In this document: positions 6,973-16,060 of the stretch, piece by piece
Layout of the letters: each line of letters opens with the position of its first letter
How positions within the stretch are numbered: the first letter of the stretch is position 1
Assembly: GCA_036495685.1 (NCBI GenBank)
Contig: DASXMJ010000191.1
Coordinates: 1-64,000, forward strand
Source of the DNA: Candidatus Binataceae bacterium
Lineage (GTDB): Bacteria > Desulfobacterota > Binatia > Binatales > Binataceae
DNA: 64,000 nt
Direction: 5' to 3'
Notes under the pieces: model-generated
What the model was told of the DNA's origin: nothing
The model's database searches: none
Seen by the model: the letters and a program-made list of their open reading frames with translations, nothing else
Program-made: the position numbers and the translations under genes

Positions 6973-9078
6973 TCAAGGAGCCGATGAGAAGTTGAACAAA
7001 TCGGTCAGATCTCCGATGGCGGGGCGATTGTTCGGGACATAGGGGTTGCCCGCACTGGTCACCGGATTCTTCAGATTGTCTCGGCTCCGACTCGTGATAG
7101 GCGCGACGCTCCAGTTGAACTCGATGAACTTTAGGATGGACACGTGGTCGCTATAGACGTGGGAAATGTGGCCGCCAGTTGAAAAGGGCGAAACCACCAT
7201 CATCGGGATACGGGTACCATCGCCGAAGAAATCGAGCGCCTGGATGTAACCGGAGTCGTAGTAGCCACCGCCCTCGTCAAAGGTGATGAAGATTGCAGTG
7301 CTCGCCCACAAGCTTGGGTTGGCCTGCACTGCATCGACGATCTTCTTGACGAAGCCCTCGAACAGGATGAGCTTCGATGAAGCCGGATGGCCATCAACCC
7401 AGCCGCTGGGCTTGACGAAGGATACCGCCGGCAGCGTACCATTAGCGATATCGCTGTAAAGGTCAGTCGTGTCTTTCAGGTGCGTAGTGCGAACCGCCGC
7501 GTTGGTCATGATGGAGGTGGAATACTGGAAGAAGTTGCAGATGTTGCAGTACTGATCGCTGGTCGGCCCGATTGCCCCAAAATTCAGCTGGTACTTGTCG
7601 GTAAGATAGGCGTTAAACTGATCGCCGTAGTATTTAAAGGAAACATTTTTATCAATTAACGCGTCACCGACATTGCGTACAGTCGACGGTGGAATCGTAA
7701 AGGGAGTGTTGTTCACATTTGTATCGGTGGAGGCGTTCGACCCATCGCCGAAATAACCCGGGTTGTAATTGTTGAGCAGATAGTAGTGGTCAGGAGCGCA
7801 GTTGGGGTTGATAGATACTGAACCGAGGTACGTAGTGACTGCGGTCACCCCCGGTTGTGTGGTATCGGCGCAGTCGCTGTACGAGCCGCCGCCGAATGCG
7901 GCGGAGCCAAACGCCCCACCGCCGTAGCCGTCCTCAGTGTACCAGTTGTTTGTGCCCCCAGCCGGATTTGGGTCTTCCACCTCATCGACAACGCCGGCAT
8001 TGGGCGTCCCTTTCAGGACCAACCGGTTATGAGGTGGAATGGCTGGATTTCCCGCCGCATCACTGAAAAAGAGCGCATCGCCATATCCCATCATGATGTG
8101 ATTCGCGCCGGTGCCGCCCATAACCGCCTGGTGATAGTTGTCGCTCATCGAGTAAGTGTCAGCGAGGAACTCTAGATAGGGGGCGTCGCCTTGCTGAACG
8201 TTATAGAAGCCGAGCGCCGTCGACCCTTCGCCAGTGGTCTTCGCCGAGGGAGAAAACTCAGTGCTAAAATTGCGCGGCTGCGCCAGGCCGTTAGTACCAG
8301 CACCAACCGTCACTTCGACCCACGCAAACAAGTCTTGTAGACAGCCGCCCGGGTTCATAAGGGAGGCGAAAGTCAGGTTACAGTCGGCTTGCTGCCACAT
8401 CTGGTAAAACCTGTGTACGGGACTAGCGGCGTAAGCGTCATAAGGGAACGTGGCGGAAGTTAGCTGGAAGGGTCCCGGGGAAAGACTGTTGACGTTCTGG
8501 ATCCTGGTGTCCGGAGTCTTCGACTTCAGGCCGGTGCCGCCAGTCAATAGGAACTGATAATAGTTGGGCGCCAGGCCGTTCTCCGAGGTGGTCGCGTCTC
8601 GCGGAGTACACATACCGTTGTCTGTACAGACGTTGGTGGGACCTCCGGCCAACGGGTCTGGAAGAAATGGGTAGAGCGCCTTGTCGCCCGGGCTGGTCTC
8701 GTACAGCTGACCGGTTGCAGAAGTGTCTCCTGTGTTAGGACAAAGGCCCCCCTTCCCGACATCGCAAGCCGAGTTCTGGTTGGCCATAGAAAAGTTCGGC
8801 CCTGGTGATCCGTCGGCGTTGATGATCTTTTCGGACAGAAGATTGTTCACCGTCTGCCCAGTCTTTGGCTGATAGGTGGCGAAAATGTGGTCGAACGTGC
8901 GGTTTTCGCCGATGATCACAATTACATGTTTAATGGGAGTACTAGTGTTGTTGTCGTTGCTGGGTGGAACTGCAGCGCCGACGAGAGGAATCCCAATCAC
9001 AAAATTCATCGCTGCGACAAAACTTAGCGTAACCGCAGAGTTGTGGATGATACTTTGAACACCGGATCTGATCTTCAT
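6973..9078 (-). CDS. Secreted phospholipase C / acid phosphatase-family phosphoesterase
   Basis: 701 residues with an N-terminal signal peptide (hydrophobic run about residues 14-36, ending near GAAVPPSN). It carries the hallmarks of the phosphoesterase family that includes bacterial phospholipase C and AcpA: VIVIIGENRTFDHIF near residue 55, a central YHQAVMGGTGANHIMMGYG, then FITFDEGGGYYD and a C-terminal SDHVSILKFIEFNW. The E, N, D-E and D-H residues in these motifs are the expected metal and catalytic positions. It should hydrolyse phosphate esters outside the cytoplasm. Single gene, followed by a strong hairpin. Confidence 0.88.
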   Translation of the reverse strand: MKIRSGVQSIIHNSAVTLSFVAAMNFVIGIPLVGAAVPPSNDNNTSTPIKHVIVIIGENRTFDHIFATYQPKTGQTVNNLLSEKIINADGSPGPNFSMANQNSACDVGKGGLCPNTGDTSATGQLYETSPGDKALYPFLPDPLAGGPTNVCTDNGMCTPRDATTSENGLAPNYYQFLLTGGTGLKSKTPDTRIQNVNSLSPGPFQLTSATFPYDAYAASPVHRFYQMWQQADCNLTFASLMNPGGCLQDLFAWVEVTVGAGTNGLAQPRNFSTEFSPSAKTTGEGSTALGFYNVQQGDAPYLEFLADTYSMSDNYHQAVMGGTGANHIMMGYGDALFFSDAAGNPAIPPHNRLVLKGTPNAGVVDEVEDPNPAGGTNNWYTEDGYGGGAFGSAAFGGGSYSDCADTTQPGVTAVTTYLGSVSINPNCAPDHYYLLNNYNPGYFGDGSNASTDTNVNNTPFTIPPSTVRNVGDALIDKNVSFKYYGDQFNAYLTDKYQLNFGAIGPTSDQYCNICNFFQYSTSIMTNAAVRTTHLKDTTDLYSDIANGTLPAVSFVKPSGWVDGHPASSKLILFEGFVKKIVDAVQANPSLWASTAIFITFDEGGGYYDSGYIQALDFFGDGTRIPMMVVSPFSTGGHISHVYSDHVSILKFIEFNWSVAPITSRSRDNLKNPVTSAGNPYVPNNRPAIGDLTDLFNFSSAP

Positions 9079-10584: not shown

Positions 10585-10803
10585 TCAGACGGGAGTCGCG
10601 CGGATGCGGGTATGTAGCCATTTTTCAATAAGGTCGCGACTGAACCGCCAATCACTGCCGACCCGGAATGCGGGGAGTTGGCCGTTTCTGAGCAACCTGT
10701 AGACCGTCGAGCGATGGACCCGCAGAAAGTCCGCCAACTCATCGGCGGTCAGCAATTCGTCATGTCCAACTCTGAGTGCTTTCACTTCCAAGTCGGGTTT
10801 CAC
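10585..10803 (-). CDS. Excisionase/MerR-type helix-turn-helix DNA-binding protein
   Basis: About 72 residues from GTG 10803; GTG 10785 is equally possible, and the frame is open up to TTG 10893. The core LLTADELADFLRVHRSTVYR, then LPAFRVGSDWRFSRDLIEKWL is the classic winged-HTH of the excisionase (xis)/BldC class: HTH, R-V-G wing, W-R-F anchor. Such stand-alone proteins bind DNA and are often regulators rather than recombinases; no integrase is present. An 18-bp palindrome sits 74 bp upstream of the start. A frameshifted relative lies at 15861-16060. Confidence 0.8.
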   Translation of the reverse strand: MKPDLEVKALRVGHDELLTADELADFLRVHRSTVYRLLRNGQLPAFRVGSDWRFSRDLIEKWLHTRIRATPV

Positions 10804-10876: not shown

Positions 10877-10894
10877 ATTGGACTTTGGTCCAAT
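10877..10894. promoter_or_regulatory. 18-bp palindrome, operator candidate (copy 1)
   Basis: Read toward the HTH gene this is ATTGGACCAAAGTCCAAT: 7-bp perfect arms (ATTGGAC/GTCCAAT) around four bases. It lies between the ~70-residue gene (whose stop is at 10948) and the HTH gene, 74 bp upstream of the latter's likely start. It differs by one base from the copy at 13269-13286. The GGAC-N4-GTCC core resembles operators of LuxR/NarL-class response regulators such as DosR. Binding protein unknown. Confidence 0.6.
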
Positions 10895-10947
10895 GGGCAC
10901 TCGAGGGGGTGGGCGCGCGCTCATCACGGCGAGCGCGGACTGTGGGT

Positions 10948-11157
10948 CTATCGCTCGACGAACGCGTCGATATCCGCGATTCGCAGATGCTCGAGAACCT
11001 TCAATGGGTCTTCGGTGACGATAACTGCATATTTTGAGACCAGCTTCGTGCCCGAGCGGGGTTTGATGCCGTTCTCATTGAGAATATTCAGCGCCTTTAT
11101 GAAGCTGCCTGGGAGGTCATGACCAGGGGCTGCAGGCTCTACAAAAATTCGGACCAT
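10948..11157 (-). CDS. Unrecognised 69-residue protein, paralogue of 5908-6117
   Basis: 69 residues from ATG 11157 (MVRIFVEPAAPGHDLPGSF), with GAGAG upstream; an in-frame GTG lies at 11169. It shares the core SGTKLVSKYAVIV and EDPLKVLEHLR with the copy at 5908-6117. Small and soluble. Unlike its paralogue it has no 98-residue partner downstream; the next gene is the HTH regulator. Function unknown. Confidence 0.65.
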   Translation of the reverse strand: MVRIFVEPAAPGHDLPGSFIKALNILNENGIKPRSGTKLVSKYAVIVTEDPLKVLEHLRIADIDAFVER

Positions 11158-11785
11158 TTTATCTCTCACTTTGGAATCGACTATCTGCTCGATCTATTGA
11201 TGGTCAGACACAGGAGGAGGGCTATCAGCGATGAAACTCCGAAAGCCGAAACAAAACCAAGCCAAAACAAGGTCACCTCTCTGTCACCCTCTGAAATTGG
11301 TCTTTACGAAGGAGGAAACGGATCTACCGCCTTCAACTAGCAGCTCGCGGCAGTCACGAAGATCGTTCTAGTAGCACCTTGCTAGTTGGACGCGCTCGCG
11401 GTCCTGCGTATTCAGGCGGGAAAAGACCAGCTGTCGACTGCAATAAATGGGTTCCGGAATTGAGGCCAGGCTTTTTGGTTCCTCTCGGAGGAACTTCGCA
11501 CTGCGGATGCGTTTGACGGCCGAAATCGTAACGCGGTCCGAGCAGCGCATCCGGTCTCTTGAGGGAGGATGTCTTTCTCTGAAGGGTCCGGCGCCAACAC
11601 ACACGCTGGCCGCAGCCAGCAAGGGACGGCCGCGCGATCTTTCGGACTCACGTCGCTAAAAAGAACCAGCGGGACGGTAGCGGCGCGCTTGGCCCTTTCC
11701 CGCGTCGGTCGATCAGACATATAAGAACGAGACGGGAACTGCCCGTTCGCCAAGCTCATGGCGATGCTCAGACGGGCAGCGAAGC
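11158..11785. other. Stretch without recognisable genes
   Basis: About 630 bp upstream of the histidine kinase. Open frames on both strands lack plausible composition. It presumably contains promoters for the kinase and for the 69-residue gene. Confidence 0.4.
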
Positions 11786-13126
11786 TTGTACGTGGCTGCG
11801 CGTTTGAAAGAAACCAAAAAAACCTCCGGTGCGGGCGCTCATCGTGCACAAAAGGGTGCTGGAGCTACAGGGGTAGATTTCGAAGCGCTGCTCAGCGATT
11901 TATCGGCCGCTTTCGTCCGTGTGGCGGTTGACGAGATCGACCGTGAAATGGAGCACGGGCTTGAGCGGATCGTGCTGGCGATGAAGGTCGATCGCAGTAC
12001 CGTCGTGCAAGTAGTTCCCCAAGACGGATTTCTCTACGTAACCCATCAGTGGGCGCGAGCGGGTGTTGGGACCCCGCAGCGGGGCATACCGATTGATCGG
12101 ACACCTGAAACCCCTTGGCTCGATGACCAGATAGCATCGGGCCACGTGGTAGTGTTCTCGCGCCTGGACGACGTTCCGCCGGAGGCCTCAACTGATCGGG
12201 AGGTCTTCCGTGACGCCGGGAGCAAATCTAACGTTACGATCCCATTGCGGGTCGGCGGAGTCGTGGTCGGTGCCCTCTTGTTTGGCGCGGTCCGTTTCGA
12301 GAAACATTGGTCGGAGCAGGAAGTGCAGCGCCTCAAACTGGTGGCTGAGATCTTCGGAAACGCCTTTGAACGAAAGCGTGCCGAAACGGAGATCCGCCGG
12401 CTCGCGGAGGAATTGCGTCAGGCTTCACAGGTAATGACGATGGGAGAGCTGACCGCTTCGCTGGCGCACGAGCTCAACCAGCCGCTCGGAGCAATCTTGA
12501 ACAATGCGAAAGCTGCTCGACGCCTGCTTACCGCCAAGACCCCGGATCTAATCGAAATTGACGCCGCGCTGGACGATATTATTCGCGATGATGCACGGGC
12601 AGTAGATATCGTCAAGAATGTTCGCGCCATGTTCCAACGCGGCGCGGCCAAGATGGCACCGATCGATGTCAGGCAACTCATAGTTGAGGTAGCTCGCATA
12701 GTGAACAGCGATGCGAGGATGAAGGAAATCTCGTGGTCCTTGGAGTTGTCCGATTCGCTGCCACGCGTGCGAGGCGACAAGACACATTTGACGCAAGCCA
12801 TCCTGAGCCTGGTCGTAAATGCATTTGACTCGGTTTGCGACGGCGACGGACCGCGCGAGGTTGTTCTGCGCGCGGATCAGGTGGAGCCCAATCACGTACA
12901 CGTATCCGTGCGCGATTCCGGCAAGGGTATCGACGCCAAGGTGATACCGAATCTGTTCGAGGCTTTTTACACGACCAAACCGCGTGGCATGGGCATGGGC
13001 CTCACCATCGTTCGTTCAATCATCGAGAATCATGGAGGCCGGATCTGGGCCACTCGCAATCCAGTGCGTGGCGCTACCCTGGAGTTTATTCTGCCAGTCG
13101 AACCGAATAACCAGCCGACCAGCTGA
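11786..13126 (+). CDS. Cytoplasmic GAF-domain sensor histidine kinase
   Basis: 446 residues from TTG 11786; GTG 11792 is an alternative and no good ribosome site decides. Residues about 30-195 form a GAF sensor domain, followed by a short coiled coil and a FixL/NtrB-type HisKA with SLAHELNQPLG (His228). The HATPase domain has the N box (LVVNAFDS, Asn345), G1 (VRDSGKGID, Asp377), F (FEAFYTTK) and G2 (GMGMGLTI). There is no membrane segment, so it senses an internal signal. No response regulator is encoded in this window. It lies between the two copies of the 18-bp palindrome. Confidence 0.9.
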   Translation: MYVAARLKETKKTSGAGAHRAQKGAGATGVDFEALLSDLSAAFVRVAVDEIDREMEHGLERIVLAMKVDRSTVVQVVPQDGFLYVTHQWARAGVGTPQRGIPIDRTPETPWLDDQIASGHVVVFSRLDDVPPEASTDREVFRDAGSKSNVTIPLRVGGVVVGALLFGAVRFEKHWSEQEVQRLKLVAEIFGNAFERKRAETEIRRLAEELRQASQVMTMGELTASLAHELNQPLGAILNNAKAARRLLTAKTPDLIEIDAALDDIIRDDARAVDIVKNVRAMFQRGAAKMAPIDVRQLIVEVARIVNSDARMKEISWSLELSDSLPRVRGDKTHLTQAILSLVVNAFDSVCDGDGPREVVLRADQVEPNHVHVSVRDSGKGIDAKVIPNLFEAFYTTKPRGMGMGLTIVRSIIENHGGRIWATRNPVRGATLEFILPVEPNNQPTS

Positions 13127-13268
13127 GCCGAACGCCAGGAAGCTTACCCATCGTCCGACGCGTTTGCGCCGAAAGCGGTATGCGACCGCGACGACCAAAA
13201 ATGAAGGCCTTTCGACGGCCGTTGTGGTGGGGGGATGCGGGGAACTAGCGCCTAGGGCAGCCGCCTTC

Positions 13269-13286
13269 ATTGGACCAATGTCCAAT
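13269..13286. promoter_or_regulatory. 18-bp palindrome, operator candidate (copy 2)
   Basis: ATTGGACCAATGTCCAAT: 7-bp perfect arms around CAAT, 100 bp upstream of the YceI start. It matches copy 1 at 17 of 18 positions when both are read toward the downstream gene. The shared orientation and distance support a common operator. Confidence 0.6.
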
Positions 13287-13385: not shown

Positions 13386-14000
13386 ATGAATAAAGAATTT
13401 TTACAGGGCAGGCGATGGGTAGCTAGCGCTCTCTTCGTCGTGGCGTCAGCCGTACTCCCGTCATTAAGCTCTGCGCAAGAGGTTCCAGTTTTTCAAATTA
13501 CGCCGCTCGAAAGCACGATCAAGTTCGGCGTGAAAGCGTCCGTGCCGATCGAAGGTCGGTTCGACCAGTGGAGCGCCACTCTAACCTTCACGTCCCCGGA
13601 GGTGACGACTGCAGTCTTTGACGTTGAGATACAGGCTGCCAGCGTGGATACGGGGAGCAGCCTGAAGAATAGCAAGCTCAAAAGCTCGGATTTCTTCGAC
13701 GTCAACAACAATCCGTTGATTACGTTTAAGTCAACCAAGGTCGTACAGACCGCTCCTGACACCTTTGAGCTGGACGGCAACTTTACAATTCGGGGTGTTA
13801 CTAAGGCCGAGAAGCTGGCACTCACGGTGTCTGGCAGAGGAACCGGCACGGGGCAGATTAACGGGACCATGGCCTTCGACCGCAAAGATTACGGGATGAA
13901 CAGCGGCATTCCCTTTATTAAGATCGCCGACCGTGTATCGGTGACGGTCTCCCTGAAGGCGACGCGAGTCGCCGGGCCTCCGGTAGTGTTTAAGCAGTAG
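13386..14000 (+). CDS. YceI-family periplasmic protein
   Basis: 204 residues. A signal peptide (about residues 1-27, ending LSSAQE) is followed by the YceI lipocalin-like beta-barrel: STIKFGVKASVPIEGRF, SLKNSKLKSSDFFDVNNNPLITF, then FTIRGVTKAEKLAL and FDRKDYGMNSG, all in family order. YceI proteins bind isoprenoid-type lipids such as polyprenoids; several are induced by stress. The operator-like palindrome 100 bp upstream suggests control together with the HTH gene. Confidence 0.92.
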   Translation: MNKEFLQGRRWVASALFVVASAVLPSLSSAQEVPVFQITPLESTIKFGVKASVPIEGRFDQWSATLTFTSPEVTTAVFDVEIQAASVDTGSSLKNSKLKSSDFFDVNNNPLITFKSTKVVQTAPDTFELDGNFTIRGVTKAEKLALTVSGRGTGTGQINGTMAFDRKDYGMNSGIPFIKIADRVSVTVSLKATRVAGPPVVFKQ

Positions 14001-14292: not shown

Positions 14293-15792
14293 ATGGCGAA
14301 GGCGAAGCCAAACATTCTAGTCATCTGGGGTGACGACATCGGCACCTCCAACCTCAGTATCTTTACCAAGGGGATGATGGGTTACCGGACACCTCATATC
14401 GATCGAATTGCCGAGGAGGGAATTCTGTTCACTGACAGCTACGGGGAGCAGAGTTGCACTGCGGGACGATCGGCATTCATTACGGGTCAGAGCGTATTTC
14501 GTACGGGTTTGAGCAAGGTCGGATTGCCGGGAGCCGATCTGGGCCTGCGTGGTGAAGATCCCACCATCGCGGAGCTGCTAAAGCCGCTGGGCTATGCCAC
14601 CGGCCAGTTCGGCAAGAACCATTTCGGCGACAAGGATGAATTTCTGCCAACCAACCACGGATTCGACGAGTTTTTTGGCTTCCTCTACCACTTGAACGCG
14701 ATGGAAGAGCCAGAGTTGCCGGATTATCCTTTGTCCTCCGACTATCCCAACTTCAAGAAGAATTAAGGCCCCCGCGGTGTGCTCGAGTGCAAGGTAAATC
14801 CAGACGGCACCCAATCAATTCACGATACCGGTCCACTGAGCAAGAAGCGTATGGAGACCATCGATGATGAGGTCGTGGCCAAAACGAATGACTTCCTAGA
14901 GCGTCAAGTCGGGGCCAGCAAACCGTTCTTCGTATGGTTCAACACCTCACACATGCATTTCCGCACACACGCCAAGCCCCAGATCCGGGGCCAGGCCGGG
15001 CGCTGGCAGTCGGAATATCACGACGTGATGATTGAACACGACCTGGTAGTCGGCAAACTGCTACAAAAACTGGACGACCTGGGCATCGCCGAAGATACGA
15101 TCGTCATGTACAGCACCGATAACGGCCCGCACATGAACTCGTGGCCTGACGCTGGTATGACACCCTTTCGCAACGAGAAGGACTCGAACTGGGAAGGGGC
15201 CTTCCGCGTCCCGTGCATGGTCCGTTGGCCGGGCGTTGTCAAACCTGGCAGTGTCTCCAATGAAATCATCAGCCACCTGGATTGGCTGCCAACCTTCTTG
15301 GCCGCCGCTGGCGAGGGCGACATCAAAGAAAAACTTCTCAAGGGCCATCAGGCGGGCAAGAAAACCTTCAAGGTTCACCTCGACGGATACAATTTCCTGC
15401 CTCACTTGAGCGGCCCGGCGAAGGCGCCGCGGGTGGAATACTTTTACTTCTCCGACGACGGCGATATGATGGCCATGCGATACGACAATTGGAAAGTGAC
15501 GTTCATGGAACAGCGGATGCCCGGCACCCTGCGAATCTGGCAGGAACCACTCGTCTCGTTGCGGTTTCCTAAGCTATTTAACCTCCGCACCGATCCCTAC
15601 GAGCGCGCCGATATTACCTCGAACACCTATTGGGACTGGGTGTTAGATCACATCTTTCTGTTCCTTCCCGCGCAGGCAATCGTGGCAGATTTTCTAAAAA
15701 CTTTCGGGGAATATCCGCCACGCCAAAAAGCAGCGTCCTTCACCATTGACCAGGTGCTGGAAAAGCTTCAGCGGCAAGGCGGAAGCCATTAG
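14293..15792 (+). pseudogene. Arylsulfatase gene split by an in-frame TAA
   Basis: ATG 14293 (GGAGAGG upstream) starts a type I sulfatase: [11 protein letters not shown] (metal-binding Asp pair), SCTAGRS with Cys55 in the C-x-A-G-R formylglycine site, then [13 protein letters not shown] at 14764-14766 follows residue 157. The same frame then continues for 342 codons to 15792 with the rest of the enzyme (FFVWFNTSHMHF, VMYSTDNGPHMNSWPD, and a C-terminal RTDPYERADIT). Rejoined, the length (about 499) and motif order fit an intact arylsulfatase. One base change to a Tyr or other sense codon would restore it. No sulfatase-maturating enzyme is visible nearby. Confidence 0.85.
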
Positions 15793-15860
15793 ATGCAAAT
15801 GCGCTGGGATCGACCGTCGGCCGCGAAGAACATTAGATACTGCCGGATACGGCCCAACCT

Positions 15861-16060
15861 TCAGTCATTTTGCCTGCGGGATTCCAACCATTGCTCAAAT
15901 GAAACGCGACTGAAGCGCCAATCACCCCAACCCCAACTGGGAAAGCCCACAGATCACCGCTCTTCGCCAGCCCGTAGATGGTCGACGGATGGATCGGGAG
16001 AAAGTTCGCCACTTCCTTCGCAGTAAGGATTTCGTCGCTTAACGGTTTACGCGCCTTCAT
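15861..16060 (-). pseudogene. Frameshifted excisionase-type HTH gene
   Basis: ATG 16060 follows GGAGA and encodes MKARKPLSDEILTAKEVANF, then the HTH (HPSTIYGLAKSGDLWAFPVG). At about 15930 a GTTGGGGTTGGGG run shifts the frame. The expected wing and anchor (GDWRFSRVSFEQWLESRRQND, then TGA at 15861-15863) sit in another frame, while the direct frame runs on meaninglessly to 15833. Restored length would be about 66 residues. It is clearly related to the intact protein at 10585-10803. Confidence 0.75.

Follow-up and report, generated by a model that had tools for sequence, protein, structure and literature searches.

A palindromic box and a predicted FixJ-type regulon with GAF histidine kinases in two families of one bacterial class

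Introduction

The DosR motif is GGAC-N4-GTCC, and the StyR/TodT box is a palindrome with an AC-N4-GT geometry. For OsdR, the box AGGGCCGATCGGCCCT has been reported (PMC5069765). Among the gene families that appear in this work, DUF2950 has been described as part of a DUF3300/DUF2950 pair in root nodule bacteria; in the part of that report available to us, gene neighbourhood gave no functional clue, and neither a regulator nor a motif is named (PMC4653623).

We analysed a stretch of 64,000 nucleotides from a Candidatus Binataceae bacterium, called the window hereafter. A preliminary description had pointed out an 18-bp palindrome on either side of a GAF histidine kinase gene and had likened it to the operators of DosR-type regulators, suggesting a small regulon that senses redox state or oxygen.

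Results

The two palindromes of the window and their surroundings

Both palindromes lie where they had been described (Table 1). They are exact 18-mers of the type that we call A, whereas only about 0.09 sites per window are expected by chance at up to three mismatches. The first is oriented toward a gene for a small HTH_17 protein. The second is located 142 nt past the stop codon of the kinase gene and 99 nt ahead of the YceI ATG, in agreement with the spacing given earlier. For the HTH_17 gene, the earlier figure of 74 bp corresponds to the GTG at 10803, one of two GTG candidates, and because no ATG is found in the right place, this start codon is uncertain. Genes and their start codons were called with a custom-made program, and some proteins encoded next to boxes were named by eye from sequence alone.

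Table 1. Coordinates of the boxes and neighbouring genes in the window
Feature	Position	Strand	Remarks
Type-A box ATTGGACCAAAGTCCAAT	10877..10894	-	Candidate extended -10 TGgTACGAA, hexamer offset 22
Type-A box ATTGGACCAATGTCCAAT	13269..13286	+	-10 weak, off-register: TAAGAA at offset 19
HTH_17 (excisionase-like) small protein	10585..10803	-	Putative target of the first box; start GTG 10803 or 10785
YceI-family secreted protein	13386..14000	+	Putative target of the second box
GAF-HisKA-HATPase sensor histidine kinase	11792..13126	+	Start 11786 or 11792
Arylsulfatase reading frame, downstream of YceI	14293..15792	+	In-frame TAA at 14764-14766

The kinase between the palindromes has GAF, HisKA and HATPase domains and no PAS match, and as described it has no adjoining response regulator. 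The arylsulfatase frame is full-length apart from its in-frame stop, and relatives have an uninterrupted gene at ~62% identity. Sulfatases are frequent box neighbours in relatives. In this genome, several small excisionase-like HTH_17 genes or look-alikes are found near boxes at 10585-10803 and 15833-16060 of the window and at 8770-9006 of locus L068; one HTH_17-like gene comes after a phosphoketolase gene in L310.

Distribution of the box in the genome

The preliminary description had recommended a whole-genome scan. In the window's genome assembly (4.69 Mb, 245 contigs, 96% complete), the 18-mer at up to three mismatches gave 12 matches, as opposed to two for the reversed pattern. The nine best sites are all intergenic and HTYGGACCAAWGTC-like, with the consensus ATTGGACCAARGTCYNAT, which is slightly asymmetric and usually directed at the next gene. 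A weaker match on contig C114 is located within a gene and is probably a chance match. The flanks of the sites are not repeats, the exception being the leaders on C14 and C152, which are those of near-identical paralogues.

Reading each site in the CCAA direction leads to the YceI and HTH_17 genes of the window, a gene for a zinc-ribbon/cyclase protein on each of C14, C152 and C131, a gene for a secreted protein ~380 nt away on C129, and a PDZ protein gene whose called start is ~410 nt away on C182. The C187 site has a degraded sulfatase-like stretch on one side and the start of an intact sulfatase on the other. A further site is located on C66. The C14 box, like the second box of the window, comes directly after a GAF-kinase gene, and a DUF2950 gene is found near a box on C131. 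A shared operator precedes several transcription units, and the idea of a multi-gene regulon is supported; that of a small and local one is not.

Association of the box with FixJ-type regulators and GAF kinases

We extended the analysis to the 41 genomes of family f1, which contain 31 type-A boxes (ATTG..CAAT) and 18 type-B boxes (ATCS..SGAT), as opposed to two and none, respectively, in the controls. None of 52 sites lies inside a called gene. Taking a type-A or type-B site with at most one mismatch as presence of the box and an E value below 1e-80 as membership of the regulator clade, the box is found in 11/11 genomes with the regulator and in 4/30 without it, i.e. the window's genome, G011, G021 and G022. 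The Fisher p value of this co-occurrence is ~4e-7, with related genomes treated as independent, and because of this relatedness the p values overstate independence.

In relatives, boxes adjoin operons in which a GAF histidine kinase related to that of the window has a FixJ-type response regulator (REC + GerE) after it or on its flank, often together with a stand-alone REC protein. Such operons, with boxes around them, are found in G004 (L072/L073), G015 (L078), G001 C67 (L131), G019 (L136) and G008 (L137), so that the system probably regulates itself in relatives, judging from the placement of the boxes. The closest regulator-linked kinase, on G020 C134, is 62% identical to that of the window and has a FixJ-type regulator gene 27 nt downstream, with V at the key residue discussed below; the same contig has a cyclase gene with box-like sites. 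Divergent pairs of boxes ~33-35 bp apart occur between opposed genes, at 15699/15732 and 19358/19391 of L072 and in L226. In another phylum, one cluster of Holophagae bacterium FeB_10 (L151) encodes a kinase, a FixJ-type regulator, a REC protein and, at 63% identity to that of the window, a sulfatase; this cluster has no box, and the recognition residue of its regulator is L.

A link of the regulon to GAF histidine kinases of the kind encoded between the two palindromes, as suggested earlier, is supported. We consider it likely that the two 18-mers of the window are operators of a FixJ-type response regulator belonging to a GAF-kinase two-component system. The support is computational: box enrichment, intergenic placement, orientation bias, co-occurrence with the regulator, covariation between regulator residue and box, and spacing to the -10 element.

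Search for the regulator in the window's genome

A cognate FixJ-type regulator was not found in the 245-contig, 96% complete assembly. Neither the region past the C182 kinase nor the gap that follows the window kinase contains a reading frame for the regulator. A GerE search of this genome gave only two strong matches, on C43 and C97, both NarL-type and not near boxes. We rejected these two as box regulators: they form pairs with kinases of their own, the stretches fetched around them are devoid of boxes, and their helices read TVKTHLNN. The only FixJ-type REC of the genome, on C174, is truncated where the contig ends and lies beside a different kind of kinase. In this region (L130 1-3909), a large protein with a GAF-HisKA-HATPase C-terminus precedes the truncated REC gene. 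As no regulator of the right kind is present in the assembly, the acting regulator of the window's species is a predicted one, and its link with the box there rests on relatives.

An alternative that we regard as rather unlikely is that the regulator has been lost in the window's species and that the regulon is decaying, its kinases and boxes being remnants or read by another protein. Besides the missing clade regulator, it would account for the stop codon in the sulfatase frame of the window, for the C187 sulfatase-like fragment in another frame, and for the slot past the window kinase, which is the regulator's place in relatives and holds only a box. However, the boxes are very well conserved, and of two further kinase paralogues in the genome, one is intact and 70% identical, the other being cut by a contig end. 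Moreover, four contigs (C14, C152, C131 and C187) begin or end inside regulon members, which makes an assembly gap easy to believe.

Affiliation of the regulators

The regulators of relatives have PF00072 (Response_reg) and PF00196 (GerE) domains, and the earlier proposal of a LuxR-type operator is supported. Among solved structures they match StyR (4e-67) and FixJ (4e-58) over their full length, as opposed to 1e-22 for DevR/DosR; with the NCBIfam FixJ model they score 183 and 230 bits, below the cut-off of 255. The relationship to DosR that had been suggested is therefore not upheld. It is very unlikely that the boxes are operators of a DosR/DevR-like hypoxia regulator: they have the GGAC-N4-GTCC arrangement of DosR and some targets in relatives are fermentative or anaerobic (phosphoketolase, with NrfA and formate dehydrogenase as further neighbours), but StyR and FixJ are much closer matches to the box-linked regulators than DevR is, the spacer of the box is CAAR, and both NarL-type regulators of the window's genome are away from boxes.

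Correspondence between recognition helix and box type

The key residue of the regulators is the position after TIK in the recognition helix, which we take to align with Val189 of NarL. Regulators with V or A at this position go with type-A boxes and those with Q with type-B boxes. Thus, the genomes with Q regulators (G001, G008, G019, G052 and G053) are exactly those with clear type-B sites; the window's genome has one intermediate, type-B-like site. Two kinds of regulator occur in each of G001 and G053, together with boxes of both types. A regulator on G053 C374 has Y at the key residue, and the type-A-like site near the V-type regulator of G052 has two mismatches. The Q regulators form one modestly supported group on the tree, so that the switch from V/A to Q may be a single event.

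In a class-wide scan of 148 genomes, the box recurs in one further family, f2, with 19 exact sites and none in the control, and hardly anywhere else. Many of the f2 copies are letter-for-letter identical to the window's box, and ATTGGACCAAAGTCCAAT is often followed there by ATACAG, extending the box on one side (L308-L327). For V/A-type regulators of f2, the box is found ~95-155 nt past the regulator stop codon (G125, G128, G129, G135 and G143). G142 has boxes and no detected regulator, and in the G127 regulator the key residue is N. The f1 and f2 regulators form separate groups on the tree, and the shared box is thus ancestral or convergent. No box was found in the 1.5-kb flanks of those f6, f7 and f9 regulators that have F at the key residue, and neither the motif nor its control pattern was found in 80 loci with distant relatives of the kinase (1.03 Mb, several phyla).

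Promoter geometry and orientation

A TA...T hexamer is present 22-25 nt past the end of the box at 16/51 f1 sites, with a background of ~0.3 per offset, and at offsets 22-23 at 9/22 sites in f2. With this hexamer as the -10 element (-12 to -7), the box would extend from about -52 to -35 and be centred at -43.5, the position of a class-II activator. The first box of the window fits this geometry, and the second fits it poorly. Forward-only sites, directed at the gene, outnumber reverse-only ones (17 vs 5, p 0.017, subject to the same relatedness of genomes). It is highly improbable that we are dealing with a repeat element, a terminator or chance occurrences of the palindrome: the C14 and C152 sites do lie in near-identical paralogous leaders, but the remaining flanks differ, the reversed-pattern controls are near zero, the -10 spacing is fixed, and the box sequence switches with a regulator residue.

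Discussion

In the proposed system, the GAF kinase would transfer a phosphoryl group to a FixJ-type response regulator, which in its phosphorylated form would bind the box as a dimer, with one recognition helix per half-site of the core GAC-CAAR-GTC. Bound at about -43.5, the dimer would overlap the -35 region and replace the -35 element, and the regulator would act as a class-II activator of sigma-70-type promoters. In the window's species, the predicted targets comprise YceI with the sulfatase that follows it, the gene for the HTH_17 protein, three genes for zinc-ribbon cyclases, a sulfatase locus and genes for secreted proteins.

Among regulon members, proteins that are secreted or located in the envelope predominate, along with sulfatases, efflux pumps and cyclases. 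Recurrent box neighbours across genomes are sulfatases, DUF3313 lipoproteins, DUF1254/1214 proteins, phosphoketolase, DUF2950 and REC proteins, as well as RND or HlyD/ABC efflux systems, a bestrophin-like protein and EipA-like proteins. In other genomes acetate kinase is a member, and NrfA (nitrite reductase) and formate dehydrogenase are found at single sites. The regulon looks like a stress programme of envelope, efflux and redirected metabolism, and oxygen or redox state, the signal suggested earlier, is a hypothetical one.

A little-known bacterial lineage thereby gains a predicted two-component regulon with its operator, promoter geometry, regulator clade and targets, and domains of unknown function (DUF3313, DUF1254/1214 and DUF2950) would be tied to one control system. 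The pairing of box and residue is a small natural test of the specificity of response regulators for DNA. In literature searches, none of the papers listed for the motif strings was relevant, and those combining DUF1254, sulfatase and response regulator, or using StyR/TodT/FixJ, gave no matching one. The arguments seem to us evenly poised for the wider reading, namely that two families of the class share an apparently undescribed FixJ-type regulon. In this reading, the paralogous regulators of G001 and G053 keep separate target sets by the V/A-to-Q change matched by a two-sided operator change from ATTG..CAAT to ATCS..SGAT, and a box of this kind is missing from the vicinity of regulators with F.

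Compared with described systems, the regulators have the same REC + GerE architecture over their full length as StyR, TodT and FixJ (StyR 1yio, FixJ 5xso), and the box has the AC-N4-GT geometry of StyR/TodT. The system differs from these in its partner, a GAF kinase, and in its targets, which include sulfatases, YceI, cyclases, DUF3313 and DUF1254. It also differs from FixL/FixJ in that the window kinase has a GAF domain instead of the PAS-haem sensor of FixL, and its match to the FixL model, at 177 bits, is far below the cut-off of 850. The DUF2950 gene on C131 and the similar proteins encoded near boxes of relatives recall the DUF3300/DUF2950 pair, which the available part of its report presents without a regulator or motif (PMC4653623). 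DosR/DevR and OsdR (PMC5069765) are likewise LuxR-type response regulators with palindromic operators whose arms are GGAC/GTCC-like, but nothing in our analysis points to a dormancy regulon or a haem sensor here, and they belong to another subgroup and their operators have another spacer.
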